A DNA stretch of 64,000 nucleotides from the NCBI RefSeq assembly GCF_013752535.1, contig NZ_CP058348.1, forward strand, positions 124,001 through 188,000. Direction: 5' to 3'. A program made the position numbers and the translations under genes. The DNA comes from Bdellovibrio sp. KM01. Its GTDB lineage: Bacteria; Bdellovibrionota; Bdellovibrionia; Bdellovibrionales; Bdellovibrionaceae. Positions 1 through 57,678 of this stretch are shown in pieces. Numbering within the stretch: position 1 is the first letter of the stretch; each line of letters opens with the position of its first letter. A model generated the notes under the pieces. It saw nothing but the letters and a program-made list of their open reading frames with translations. It made no database searches and was not told where the DNA came from.

Positions 1-113
1 ACGAAGCTGGCTTTGATGCATATATCACCAAGCCGTTTACCAAAGAAAATTTATTGATGGTCGTTTCAAAAGTGCTACCGCAGGCGGGAGAATCAACTCA
101 TGGAAGAACTTAA
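1..113 (+). CDS. Response regulator receiver domain, C-terminal end (partial)
   Basis: The window opens inside a gene read from base 3 to the TAA at 111-113. The visible 36 residues include AYITKPFTKENLL, the typical end of a CheY-like receiver domain: the conserved Lys-Pro before helix 5. The phosphorylated Asp lies off the window. It ends shortly after the receiver fold, so it is either a single-domain regulator or a hybrid kinase ending in a receiver. It overlaps the next ORF by 14 bp, which suggests they are translated together. Family is clear; partner and output are unknown. Confidence 0.75.
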   Translation, partial: EAGFDAYITKPFTKENLLMVVSKVLPQAGESTHGRT

Positions 114-360
114 ATTTGTATTAAAGACTTTGGCATTCACGATGGTTTTGATTGTGCTTGCTCAGGTAAAAGTTGGTGGGGCTTCAATTGAATCCTACAC
201 ATTCCGCTGGTTGCAAAGGTCGACGGTGTCTCAGTATATTCAAAGTGCGGCTGCGGGTGGCGCGATGGCTTTAAAGAATCTGACAGTTCACGTAAAAGAT
301 GGCGTAGTTAGCACTGTCGATGGTTTCCAGGAAGGCTCTCACGAAAAGGCTGTTCGATAA
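100..360 (+). CDS. Small hypothetical protein with N-terminal hydrophobic segment
   Basis: An 86-residue protein of no family I recognise. Residues about 8-22 (LAFTMVLIVLAQV) form a hydrophobic stretch that could be a signal anchor; the rest is soluble with a small Ala/Gly patch (AAAGGAMA). The ATG lies inside the end of the response-regulator gene in another frame, so expression is probably coupled to it. The TAA at 358-360 directly abuts the stop codon of the convergent gene at 361-534. Coding status is supported by length and position only. Confidence 0.5.
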   Translation: MEELKFVLKTLAFTMVLIVLAQVKVGGASIESYTFRWLQRSTVSQYIQSAAAGGAMALKNLTVHVKDGVVSTVDGFQEGSHEKAVR

Positions 361-534
361 TTATCTAACGGCTTTTGTAGAAGCTACTTTTACAGATGCT
401 TGAGTTTTAGCGGCGATATTTGAAGATGTTGCTGCTGTGTTTTTGAAAAGACCGTTGTTAGAGCGTGGGCATGAACCGTAAGAAGTTGAAGACATTGCCA
501 AAGCTGCGATTACGATAAGTGTTGCTAGTTTCAT
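361..534 (-). CDS. Small secreted protein, 57 aa, sigma-54-driven
   Basis: Reading the minus strand from ATG at 534 gives 57 residues: a signal peptide (MKLATLIVIAALAMSSTSYG) followed by a short Ser/Thr/Ala/Lys-rich mature part with one Cys (SCPRSNNGLF). An AGGGG ribosome site lies about 5 bases upstream. The start is preceded by a good sigma-54 -24/-12 box at 570-585 and an enhancer-like palindrome at 646-658. Its style (signal peptide, one Cys, then low-complexity S/T/A/K) resembles the 782-991 gene. No known family; a role as an exported peptide or periplasmic factor is a guess. Confidence 0.65.
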   Translation of the reverse strand: MKLATLIVIAALAMSSTSYGSCPRSNNGLFKNTAATSSNIAAKTQASVKVASTKAVR

Positions 535-569
535 GTGATCCCCTTTGTTCGTTGGATACTTACATCTAA

Positions 570-585
570 TGCATCCGACATGCCA
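570..585 (-). promoter_or_regulatory. Sigma-54 -24/-12 promoter of the 361-534 gene
   Basis: On the minus strand the sequence is TGGCATGTCGGATGCA. GG and GC are separated by the required 12-base register, and the -24 TGGCA and -12 TGCA elements fit the RpoN consensus (TGGCAC-N5-TTGCW). Transcription would start near 559, giving a leader of about 25 bases containing the AGGGG site. Confidence 0.7.
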
Positions 586-645
586 AAGCGGGCGTTTCAG
601 ACTGAGAATTCAGTCACGAAGAATCAAGTACTTAGAAATTTCAAA

Positions 646-658
646 TCTCAAAATGAGA
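646..658. promoter_or_regulatory. Enhancer-like palindrome TCTCA-AAA-TGAGA (copy 1)
   Basis: A perfect dyad TCTCA/TGAGA with a 3-base spacer. It is centred about 93 bases upstream of the predicted sigma-54 start for the 361-534 gene, the usual distance for an activator (EBP) binding site. The same dyad occurs at four other intergenic positions in this window. Confidence 0.6.
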
Positions 659-722
659 CACACGTGCCGAACGACGCCGTTTTTCGCGCACCTGTGACAA
701 GGCATTGATCATACCCAAAATA

Positions 723-759
723 GAGTGAACGACCTGGGGGGGGTGAAGGTCGCTCACTC
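723..759 (-). terminator. Hairpin downstream of the 782-991 gene
   Basis: Arms 723-735 and 747-759 pair over 13 positions with one mismatch (GAGTGAACGACCT against GAGTGAGCGACCT in reverse complement). The loop contains a run of eight G on the plus strand. It starts 22 bases past the stop codon of the minus-strand gene. The T tract is short, so it may be a terminator or a 3'-end stabiliser. Confidence 0.5.
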
Positions 760-781
760 GGTAAGGGCTTTAATCAACATC

Positions 782-991
782 TTAAGAACCTTGAATACCT
801 TTAACAGTTTTAGTTTTTGTTGAACCAGAAGATGAAGTGTTCTTGGCCGTCTTGTAGTCGGAAGCTGTTTTATCCATCATGCGACCTGCTAGCTTTTGAT
901 TGCATACTGGAGCTGCTGTGGATAGGGATGCATGGGATACGGAACCTGTAGCTACAACGGCTACCGCGATCATCAATGTAATAGCTTTCAT
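782..991 (-). CDS. Small secreted protein, 69 aa, sigma-54-driven
   Basis: A signal peptide (MKAITLMIAVAVVATGSVSHA) is followed by about 48 mature residues with one Cys (APVCNQKLAGRMMDK) and a Ser/Thr/Lys-rich tail. The ribosome site GGAGA is close to the ATG. A strong sigma-54 box lies at 1034-1049 and a hairpin follows the stop at 723-759, so this is a well-framed single-gene transcript. Family unknown. Its position next to the hit-like locus and its RpoN control suggest a regulated exported factor, but this is inference. Confidence 0.65.
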   Translation of the reverse strand: MKAITLMIAVAVVATGSVSHASLSTAAPVCNQKLAGRMMDKTASDYKTAKNTSSSGSTKTKTVKGIQGS

Positions 992-1033
992 ACTATCTCC
1001 TTTGAAGTGAAATAAGACTTCACAGGGGTGTAT

Positions 1034-1049
1034 TGCAGCGGGTGTGCCA
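1034..1049 (-). promoter_or_regulatory. Sigma-54 -24/-12 promoter of the 782-991 gene
   Basis: The minus strand reads TGGCACACCCGCTGCA, with a perfect -24 TGGCAC, a -12 TGCA and the correct 12-base GG-to-GC register. The start would fall near 1023, about 32 bases before the ATG. A degenerate dyad (TCTCG-GGC-TGGGA, 1059-1071) lies just upstream but too close for a classical enhancer. Confidence 0.75.
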
Positions 1050-1118
1050 GAATGCCTGTCTCGGGCTGGGATGTAATCTTTGTGATATCAATAGGTTAGG
1101 GATTCGAGGGGCGAAATA

Positions 1119-1148
1119 AAAAAGGCTCCCGTTTCAGAGAGCCTTTTT
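1119..1148 (-). terminator. Rho-independent terminator of the Tad/hit operon
   Basis: Perfect stem AAAAAGGCTC / GAGCCTTTTT with a 10-base loop. It lies 30 bases after the stop of the hit-like gene and would end the long minus-strand pilus transcript. It has T runs on both strands, so it could act in both directions. Confidence 0.85.
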
Positions 1149-1462: not shown

Positions 1463-3115
1463 CTAGAGATATAGCTCTGCAGTTGCAGGCGCGATAATGT
1501 CGAGCAAGTTATTGAATGTAGAGGCCACTTGCATTGCCACTGATGGACCTTCTTTACTGTCGACCTTGTTAATCTCACCATTCGATTTATATGAAACCTG
1601 AATAGTGCCCAAGCCCGGGCGAGTCACGATCGCTGGTTTACCATAGCGCTCTTCGTACTCGATCTTAACGACTTTCTTAGCCTGATCCGTGATGGTAGCA
1701 ATACGTCCACGATTATCATAAGTCATGGAGATTTTCTGACCATCAGAGTTCTGTGCATAGTTTAGGTTGCCTTTGCCATCGTATTTAAACTGAGTGGCTT
1801 TCGTCGTTACTTTTTGACCTTTTTGATTGAAGAAAGTAGTCGATACTTGGCTAACTTTTTTAATGGTCTGATCGTACTCAAAAGCCATACGTGTTGCTGG
1901 AGTGGCTTTTACTTTCACCAAACCATCTGTGTAGTATTCGTAAGAGATACGTTCAGCATTTCTGCGGATGCTTGTCGGTTTACCGAAAAGCTCGTGATAG
2001 CTGATATCTGTTACGTTGCCATTTACAGTCGTCATCACACGTTGCAAGAAGAACTGACCGTCTGCCCGCTGTTTGTGCCAAAATTCGTATTTGTTATCTG
2101 CAACAGTCTCTTTACCGCAAACTTTCTTAACTGTAGACCAGTAGTGATTTTGCGGGTCATTTTGAGAGAATTCGTACTTATAGGCCTCTGTACACTTATC
2201 ACGATCAGTAAATGAAGTTACCCAGTCGTTTTTTTTATCGTATTTAACGGCGATAAAAGTTTTATCCGGCCAAGAAGCTTTTGTCAGATTGTGAAGATCA
2301 TCGTATTCGTACGTGTAAGTCTTTTGCCAAGCATTTTTCACTGAAGACAAATCATCCAAATTCGCGAATTTATAATCCACATTCAAACCGTTCGGGCCTG
2401 TGATGGATTTAACTTTCTTGTTTTGGTAGTACTTGAATGACAGGCGACGACCGTTGTTATCTTCAACTTTCGTAACCAGGTCTTTATCGTATTCGAATTT
2501 CAAGAAGTTGCCGTTTTTATCGTAGATGTGAGTCAACTTACCTTGCGGGCTAAAACGTTGAGCGCTGCCGTCTGGAAGAGTGCGCGTATAATACGTTTTA
2601 TTGAAAGTAAAGTTCTCAACCTCACGACCGTTGGCAAAGAATTTTGTGCCTTCTTTAACTTGAACAGCCACGCCATATTTTTTTGCGAAATCCGCACGGG
2701 CATTGTCGTCTTCAAGCAACTGAGTTTTAAGAGAAGTCAGATACGCTTCAGTAACGCCGACTTTCTTTTCAGCCTTCATCTTAGTGATGATGGAGTTGAT
2801 GGTATTCTCAACATCTTTACGAGTGACTTCGCGCTGGGAGTAGGTAACTTCCATACCACCGCCGCACTCTTTAATTTTGATATTGCCTTCACCATTAACT
2901 TCCATGCTGGTTTCGAAATCAGAGCACCATCCGAAACCAAACATCCCGTTGAAAAGTGAACGGCTATTGTAAGTTCTGATAATTTTAAGATCGTAACCAG
3001 TGCCTGGTACGTCCATGTCTATCCACGTATTGGAATAGTTGGCATTCTTCATGTCGACAAGAGCATACGCTTGCGCCGAGAAAAGAACGGCCACTGCAAT
3101 AAGTGCCTTCTTCAT
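1463..3115 (-). CDS. Secreted YD/RHS-repeat protein (Bd0109-like)
   Basis: A 550-residue protein with signal peptide (MKKALIAVAVLFSAQAYA). An N-terminal RHS-associated module (IIRTYNSRS...FGFGWCSDFE, about residues 45-70) is followed by many YD repeats of the type G.L.Y.YD..G (for example LTHIYDKNGNFLKFEYD and MTYDNRGRIATI). There is no C-terminal toxin or core-associated domain, so it is short for an RHS protein and unlikely to deliver a toxin. It is predicted to be periplasmic or on the surface. It lies between the Tad membrane gene and the hit-like gene, as Bd0109 does, and probably binds the hit-like protein. RBS GAGG precedes the ATG. Confidence 0.7.
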   Translation of the reverse strand: MKKALIAVAVLFSAQAYALVDMKNANYSNTWIDMDVPGTGYDLKIIRTYNSRSLFNGMFGFGWCSDFETSMEVNGEGNIKIKECGGGMEVTYSQREVTRKDVENTINSIITKMKAEKKVGVTEAYLTSLKTQLLEDDNARADFAKKYGVAVQVKEGTKFFANGREVENFTFNKTYYTRTLPDGSAQRFSPQGKLTHIYDKNGNFLKFEYDKDLVTKVEDNNGRRLSFKYYQNKKVKSITGPNGLNVDYKFANLDDLSSVKNAWQKTYTYEYDDLHNLTKASWPDKTFIAVKYDKKNDWVTSFTDRDKCTEAYKYEFSQNDPQNHYWSTVKKVCGKETVADNKYEFWHKQRADGQFFLQRVMTTVNGNVTDISYHELFGKPTSIRRNAERISYEYYTDGLVKVKATPATRMAFEYDQTIKKVSQVSTTFFNQKGQKVTTKATQFKYDGKGNLNYAQNSDGQKISMTYDNRGRIATITDQAKKVVKIEYEERYGKPAIVTRPGLGTIQVSYKSNGEINKVDSKEGPSVAMQVASTFNNLLDIIAPATAELYL

Positions 3116-10417: not shown

Positions 10418-10606
10418 TTACTCAGCAGTTACGCCGCCGATATTTCCTTGAAGCTCAGCAATTTTTTCTTTTACTGTAGTTTGGATATCTTTTTTGAAGA
10501 TCATCACAAGTCCAACAACAACTACGAGTAGCAAAATGTACTCAGTTGCACCTTGACCGCGTTTATTCTTCAAAAGATTCTTAGAAAAGTTCTTAAACTT
10601 TTTCAT
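10418..10606 (-). CDS. flp: Flp-family type IVb major pilin
   Basis: 62 residues. A basic leader (MKKFKNFSKNLLKNKRG) is followed by QGATEYILLLVVVVG, so cleavage falls after Gly17 with Glu-Tyr at +5/+6, the hallmark of Flp pilins. The mature subunit is about 45 residues, typical for the family. It is the first gene of the long minus-strand Tad operon. AAGGGGG precedes the ATG, and a FliA-type -10 lies at 10630-10637. Confidence 0.93.
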   Translation of the reverse strand: MKKFKNFSKNLLKNKRGQGATEYILLLVVVVGLVMIFKKDIQTTVKEKIAELQGNIGGVTAE

Positions 10607-10692: not shown

Positions 10693-10705
10693 TCTCAGAA
10701 TGAGA
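10693..10705. promoter_or_regulatory. Enhancer-like palindrome TCTCA-GAA-TGAGA (copy 2)
   Basis: Same dyad as at 646, 35919, 38890 and 57439. It is centred about 93 bases before the flp start codon, next to the terminator at 10705-10732. No sigma-54 box was found between it and flp, so here it may serve another promoter type or be a repressor site. Confidence 0.5.
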
Positions 10706-35918: not shown

Positions 35919-35931
35919 TCTCATTTTGAGA
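35919..35931. promoter_or_regulatory. Enhancer-like palindrome TCTCA-TTT-TGAGA (copy 3)
   Basis: Extends to GTCTCA-TTT-TGAGAC, perfect over 15 bases. It is centred about 130 bases upstream of the predicted sigma-54 start of the 35065-35760 gene and immediately after the end of the 955-aa gene. Confidence 0.65.
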
Positions 35932-57438: not shown

Positions 57439-57451
57439 TCTCAAAATGAGA
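57439..57451. promoter_or_regulatory. Enhancer-like palindrome TCTCA-AAA-TGAGA (copy 5)
   Basis: Identical core to copy 1. It is about 70-82 bases before the start of the 56749-57369 gene. I found no sigma-54 box between them. Confidence 0.5.
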
Positions 57452-57463
57452 TTGGGAGAAATA

Positions 57464-57487
57464 AAAAAAGAGTCCGTCGGCAACTCT
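57464..57487 (-). terminator. Terminator-like hairpin below the 57502 ORF
   Basis: On the minus strand, AGAGT pairs with ACTCT and CCG with CGG inside, followed by seven T. It lies 15 bases after the stop of the small ORF at 57502-57678 and would end a transcript there. Confidence 0.6.
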
Positions 57488-57501
57488 GAACTAAACCTGT
57501 T

Positions 57502-57678
57502 TTAGCTAAGGTGGGTGACCATGATAGCGACTTTAGGCTTCTCAGTACGAGCTGAGCTTGCACACCATTGCCAGGGACAGTCCCCAAAAATATGCTTGTA
57601 AGGTTTAATTTCGATGAGCTTTACGCCTTCGAACCCTCTGAAAACTATTCTAGCAGGAAGTATAGTTTCGTCAATCAA
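57502..57678 (-). CDS. Possible 58-aa gene or gene remnant
   Basis: An open frame from TTG at 57678 to TAA, with no internal stop and no in-frame ATG until near the end. It reads IDETILPARIVFRGFEG, then IKPYKHIFGDCPWQWC, then VAIMVTHLS; the WQWC part is distinctive. A terminator follows directly. The frame is open for about 12 further codons upstream without a better start, so it could be the 3' end of a decayed gene. The GGGACTGTCCC-like bases inside it are codons, not a repeat. Low certainty. Confidence 0.35.
   Translation of the reverse strand: MIDETILPARIVFRGFEGVKLIEIKPYKHIFGDCPWQWCASSARTEKPKVAIMVTHLS

Follow-up and report, generated by a model that had tools for sequence, protein, structure and literature searches.

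The question raised by this locus was what two very small genes beside the hit genes of a Bdellovibrio genome encode, and to which system they belong. The window analysed is the whole 64-kb stretch G000:C1:124001-188000 of the source genome (G000, 3.96 Mb). Both small ORFs of the original prediction were found in it, each with an ATG start on the minus strand. Gene A (782-991) encodes a 69-aa exported-type protein and gene B (361-534), recognized by profiles as a paralogue of A, a 57-aa one. Signal peptides were assigned by eye (K/R, hydrophobic stretch, AxA) and, like the single Cys, were confirmed in both products. On the minus strand the gene order is: Tad genes, the Bd0109 homologue (1463-3115, an RHS/YD-repeat exported protein recognized from its ORF and family scans), the Bd0108 homologue (1178-1450, a hit protein of 90 aa with a CxxC, assigned by position and alignment), a terminator-like hairpin (1119-1148, minus strand, -20 kcal/mol, z -3.3), A and B. 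The predicted 'hit-like locus' does contain true hit genes, the Bd0109 and Bd0108 homologues, and the small genes lie downstream of its end, not at its head. Between the response regulator and B there is a convergent 86-aa ORF (100-360, plus strand), its stop abutting that of B. The Bd0108 homologue of the window scored 12.6 bits against the NCBIfam model hit_Bd0108 (NF053838, cut-off 40), so automatic naming may miss it.

Selection on the two frames was estimated from Nei-Gojobori counts of synonymous and non-synonymous differences between close relatives. For A, the synonymous:non-synonymous counts were 12:1 (HD100/G028), 15:3 (HD100/G014), 17:6 (G070/G069) and 15:0 (G020/G063). The G000/G066 pair gave 14:12, a dN/dS of 0.25, and more distant pairs climbed to 0.6. 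B evolves faster, with dN/dS of 0.37-0.55 (0.40 for G000/G066), a weaker signal still below 1. These substitution patterns show that the frames of A and B evolve as coding DNA.

The locus was then taken from 33 further genomes, making 34 with the window: 24 from the genus and 10 from other genera. A lies directly downstream of Bd0108 in 24/24 Bdellovibrio genomes, and probably behind it in nine of the ten loci from other genera of the family, G089 being counted by position and size alone (no profile match at E 0.05); the exception, G046, has no ORF there. A second copy is adjacent (B) in seven genus genomes and elsewhere in the chromosome (C) in 15. B and C never occur together in these 22 genomes, and for this reason they are probably one orthologue that was relocated. 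Profile searches found no full second copy in G069 and G071. Over 66 family genomes the same searches found members in 46, among which are the 24 genus genomes; at the weak end the matches are short or possibly confined to signal peptides. Single-sequence searches of 59 genomes of the order were too insensitive, with A found in one and B in two other genomes. Two matches of B in its own genome (E 0.47 and 0.68) were rejected because they contain internal stops.

The relatedness of the two products, also claimed originally, was confirmed with profiles trained on one group, which recognized the mature parts of the other groups over shuffled sequences mostly, if not always. The A-trained profile scored 15/15 C and 5/7 B mature parts above each of their 40 shuffled versions; the C-trained profile recognized A in 23/33 cases and the B-trained one, weakly, in 11/33. 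Members of the family have a signal peptide and a mature part that opens with an invariant Cys and carries a G/R-L/F-x-x-T-N/A-P-type motif and an S/T/K/A-rich tail, predicted to be disordered. One Cys is invariant across 32 aligned members, and CxxC was not found in the small proteins. AlphaFold2 gave no fold for A (mean pLDDT 58.6, no element besides the signal helix), and the members scanned were covered by no Pfam or NCBIfam family. Judged by these sequence features, A and B are members of a conserved, overlooked family of short exported-type proteins. Conservation in relatives had been named at the outset as the test by which the prediction might be refuted; frames, promoters and position are all kept, and the refutation failed.

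The promoter regions were examined next to the frames. The sigma-54 boxes announced for both genes are present as GG-N10-GC, TGGCACACCCGCTGCA for A (1034-1049, minus strand, 58 nt upstream of the ATG) and TGGCATGTCGGATGCA for B (570-585, minus strand, 51 nt upstream of the ATG), and the start points proposed earlier (1023 and 559) agree with them. TGGCAY-N7-GCW occurs at most 100 nt before the start codon in 52 of the 55 genes of the family (33 A, 7 B and 15 C), against 15 of 16 500 shuffled upstream regions. The remaining three, all C genes, carry GGCAY-N7-GCW with the first base altered. The box stands at a regular 51-86 nt from the ATG in all copies, and other genera keep just the GG and, in the second half, the GC. 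The bare string TGGCAYN6TGCA was not enriched genome-wide in G000 (12 copies vs 16 in the reversed control); the longer TGGCAYN6TGCAWT was, with 116 vs 25 summed over the 24 genus genomes. It is the conservation across family genes that places the A and B boxes beyond chance, and a conserved GG-N10-GC at -24/-12 is the mark of a sigma-54 promoter. A sigma-54 DNA-binding domain was detected in 23 of the 24 genus genomes (the one without, G069, is 88% complete), and the source genome has 20 matches to the activator domain PF00158, 14 of them strong (E 6e-28 or lower). In HD100, rpoN is given as bd0843 (PMC3464611). We infer from the promoter sequences that A and B are transcribed by sigma-54 RNA polymerase. 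Three more sigma-54-type boxes of G000, at 1947017, 2680206 and 2819175, stand before the genes for one exported-type protein of 110 aa and two proteins of lipoprotein type, which suggests an envelope regulon.

A palindrome, TCTCA-N3-TGAGA, accompanies the boxes. Its proximal copy at B, TCTCAGTCTGAAA (595-607, minus strand, one mismatch), and its degenerate proximal copy at A, TCCCAGCCCGAGA (1059-1071, minus strand, two mismatches), both lie 9 nt upstream of the box; B also has a perfect distal copy, TCTCATTTTGAGA (646-658, no strand assigned), 60 nt upstream of the box. With up to two mismatches and within 60 nt upstream, the palindrome was found in 35/55 genes, and 30 of these 35 have it at a distance of exactly 9 nt to the box. 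In many B and C genes another copy precedes the box by exactly 60 nt, the two copies being spaced by 51 bp. Genome-wide, G000 contains 54 copies vs three in the reversed control. Those of the window are at 646-658, 10693-10705, 35919-35931 and 57439-57451. The copy at 10693-10705 (no strand assigned) precedes a Tad pilin ORF (10418-10606), the first of the Tad/hit gene row, with CCGATAA, a FliA-type -10, between them. Around 50 palindromes of G000, the FliA-type CCGATA (consensus taken from PMC3627812) occurred at a distance of up to 150 nt for 13 of the 100 directions vs 2.6 in shuffles, and sigma-54-like boxes 12 times vs 6.1. The idea that the palindrome is an enhancer site for sigma-54 only was dropped, since sigma-54-like boxes were merely doubled and the FliA-type -10 was raised fivefold. 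The copies over the genome and before the Tad pilin gene point instead to the site of a wider regulator, and TCTCA-N3-TGAGA is therefore put forward as a candidate global operator common to the small genes and the Tad/hit operon. Two further copies have neighbours of their own. The one at 57439-57451 lies about 15 nt from a 6S RNA (57466-57639, minus strand; Rfam RF00013, 69 bits), and one at about 3140587 of G000 precedes, with a FliA-type box, an ORF close to rpoN, presumably ribosome-hibernation-factor-like.

The orthologue of A in B. bacteriovorus HD100 coincides with a transcript already described. G031 was taken as HD100, both published primers mapping in it at the published coordinates. 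A non-coding sRNA of 261 bp was reported in the HD100 hit locus at 96455-96716 (Capeness et al. 2013, PMC3818213), and a later paper refers to it as a small RNA of that locus (PMC4267844). The HD100 A ORF (96483-96683, complement, 66 aa) is contained wholly in this interval, so that what was described as non-coding appears to be the same DNA as a gene with a conserved coding frame. The RT-PCR primers, at 96555-96574 and 96633-96652, both fall inside the ORF; the RT-PCR would hence have measured A-gene RNA if the product was sense to A, the strand not being resolved in the available text of that paper. The 5' end of the sRNA, set by hand at 96716, falls short of the predicted start (about 96733) by some 16 nt, and the RNA-seq interval 96436-96822 reaches upstream of that start. 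By the same source, the transcript is up in bd0108 mutants and bd0108-0121 are down in all host-independent strains (PMC3818213). A search of open-licence papers, as far as their text was accessible, found none naming bd0104-0107 or an ORF within the sRNA. The transcript published as an sRNA is thus most probably an mRNA, and it may act as an RNA regulator as well.

The 3' side of A was inspected for RNA structure. A stem-loop of 13 bp with a C8 loop follows A directly (723-759, minus strand). It is the sole C-run-loop hairpin in the window, and a strict finder recovered such a hairpin after A in 16/24 genus genomes and in two of eight other A genes examined. In an alignment of 15 of these 18 hairpins (G057, G080 and G089 were left out), seven of 12 pairs were changed on both sides, which occurred in 0/500 shuffles. 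A terminator must form its stem and would show this covariation anyway; the C-run loop needs another reason. The hairpin is probably a terminator, and its loop leaves room for a possible RNA role. Rfam searches across the window returned the 6S RNA only, with no known RNA family at the A/B locus.

The small proteins were compared with Bd0108, described in PMC4267844 as an exported, intrinsically disordered protein with a C56-C59 disulfide, which binds Bd0109 weakly via its N-terminal residues 24-66. A 42-bp deletion, recurrent and common in host-independent strains, removes its residues 73-86 (PMC4267844). In HD100 these residues are RRHDDTVSREIKGS; a like place in A, after the Cys, reads GRHSSTAFKQEFK, and C (HD100 407445-407618) has GRHAHTAS after its Cys. 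Both kinds of protein are short, with an S/T/G-rich tail, adjacent genes and a Cys followed by an R/G-L-x-x-x-T-type motif, and the small proteins may share the export and disorder of Bd0108. Bd0108 differs in its CxxC and Bd0109-binding N-terminal region, where the small proteins have one Cys and lack that region, and the small genes, unlike Bd0108, have their own sigma-54-type promoters. Comparison of mature-part profiles of the small proteins and Bd0108 gave a score of 16.4 over all 45 columns (HHalign probability 8%), above 100/100 column shuffles (maximum 13.2); on full alignments HHalign gave 87%, over just nine columns. Against hit_Bd0108, with its cut-off of 40, eight small proteins (A and B of the window and six from other genomes) reached at most 10.1 bits, which is insignificant, and HD100 Bd0108 reached 102. 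Same-genome motif matching was inconsistent (uncorrected p 0.008 for Bd0108-C and, for the four remaining pairings, 0.11-0.68). It used hand-chosen 10-mers from 18 representative genomes, with the G000 and HD100-clade rows corrected by eye, and omitted near-duplicates, G072, G034 (Bd0108 not found) and distant genomes. On these comparisons the homology to Bd0108 is weak and amounts to a lead rather than membership. By its description, a comparable arrangement exists in Bacteriovorax marinus, where two small exported-type genes, BMS_0183/4, lie beside a Bd0109 homologue (PMC4267844).

Taken together, the best explanation, to which we give a probability of about 0.62, is the following. A and B would each be transcribed by sigma-54 RNA polymerase from their own promoter, under a regulator binding TCTCA-N3-TGAGA at fixed distances upstream. 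The HD100 A gene would be the transcript published as the hit-locus sRNA and raised on Bd0108 loss. The products may be exported to the periplasm or the cell surface as small disordered proteins like Bd0108, made while the attack-phase Tad/hit operon is down. They could take part in the pilus/prey-independence signalling that also involves Bd0108, either alongside or against it, at the place where it acts: its C-terminal segment, and possibly the CxxC or the partner Bd0109. The originally suggested tie to the host-interaction switch is supported by the position of the genes and the published RT-PCR of the HD100 orthologue (PMC3818213); export and a function in the switch are predictions from the sequence.

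Several other explanations were weighed against this one. The small proteins could be envelope proteins of growth or stress, made where sigma-54 controls the cell exterior, beside the hit locus but outside the Bd0108 switch. The other boxes before exported proteins or lipoproteins, the C copies elsewhere in the chromosome and the weak homology to Bd0108 favour this, but it leaves unexplained that A immediately follows Bd0108 throughout the genus genomes examined and that its HD100 transcript responds to bd0108 mutation (PMC3818213); we hold it to be doubtful. The boxes might instead belong to a compound operator to which another regulator binds, with transcription by another sigma factor. Activators of sigma-54 normally bind further upstream than a palindrome fixed at 9 nt from the box, an unusual arrangement for this sigma factor, and near the 50 palindromes the FliA-type element outdoes sigma-54-like boxes. 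Nevertheless, GG-N10-GC keeps its spacing and distance to the ATG in all copies, other genera included, and rpoN is present in nearly all genus genomes. Moreover, no FliA-type -10 was found in the C, G065 B and G081 A upstream regions scanned, nor any sigma-70-like minus-strand match ahead of the window's own A and B genes. This makes a compound operator highly unlikely.

Two alternatives concern the HD100 transcript. It could be a dual-function RNA, encoding the small protein and regulating by its 3' hairpin, whose C-rich loop would pair with G-rich ribosome-binding sites. The covarying stem and the C-run loop, frequent in the genus and sole of its kind in the window, agree with this; the hairpin is missing by the strict rule in 8/24 genus genomes, and we consider such a double role unlikely. 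That the sRNA is truly non-coding, and its ORF there by chance, is the description of its authors (PMC3818213). It can scarcely be maintained, as a non-coding sRNA should lack a conserved coding frame and this frame is under purifying selection with a marked synonymous excess (12:1, 15:0), its start, ribosome site and family being conserved across genera. A bolder form of the preferred explanation, in which A and B are small exported proteins of the Bd0108 pathway, can also be formulated. A and C would be paralogues of Bd0108 in reduced form, transcribed by sigma-54 during growth with the FliA-type Tad/hit operon off, and would replace Bd0108 or compete with it at its partner. The predatory/axenic switch would then be a swap of two disordered exported proteins under two sigma programmes, with one palindrome regulator on both promoters and the mRNA also acting via the C-loop hairpin. 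As a whole, this proposal is speculative and decidedly unlikely.

No genetic determinant of prey dependence in Bdellovibrio is better known than the hit locus, whose sRNA has been put forward as a route from Bd0108 to replication control. If this sRNA is the mRNA of a conserved exported protein, the model would shift from RNA signalling to protein signalling. The past RT-PCR would then be expression data for a gene of which no deletion was found in open-licence papers. Sigma-54 would gain a concrete candidate role in Bdellovibrio, together with a two-operator promoter.
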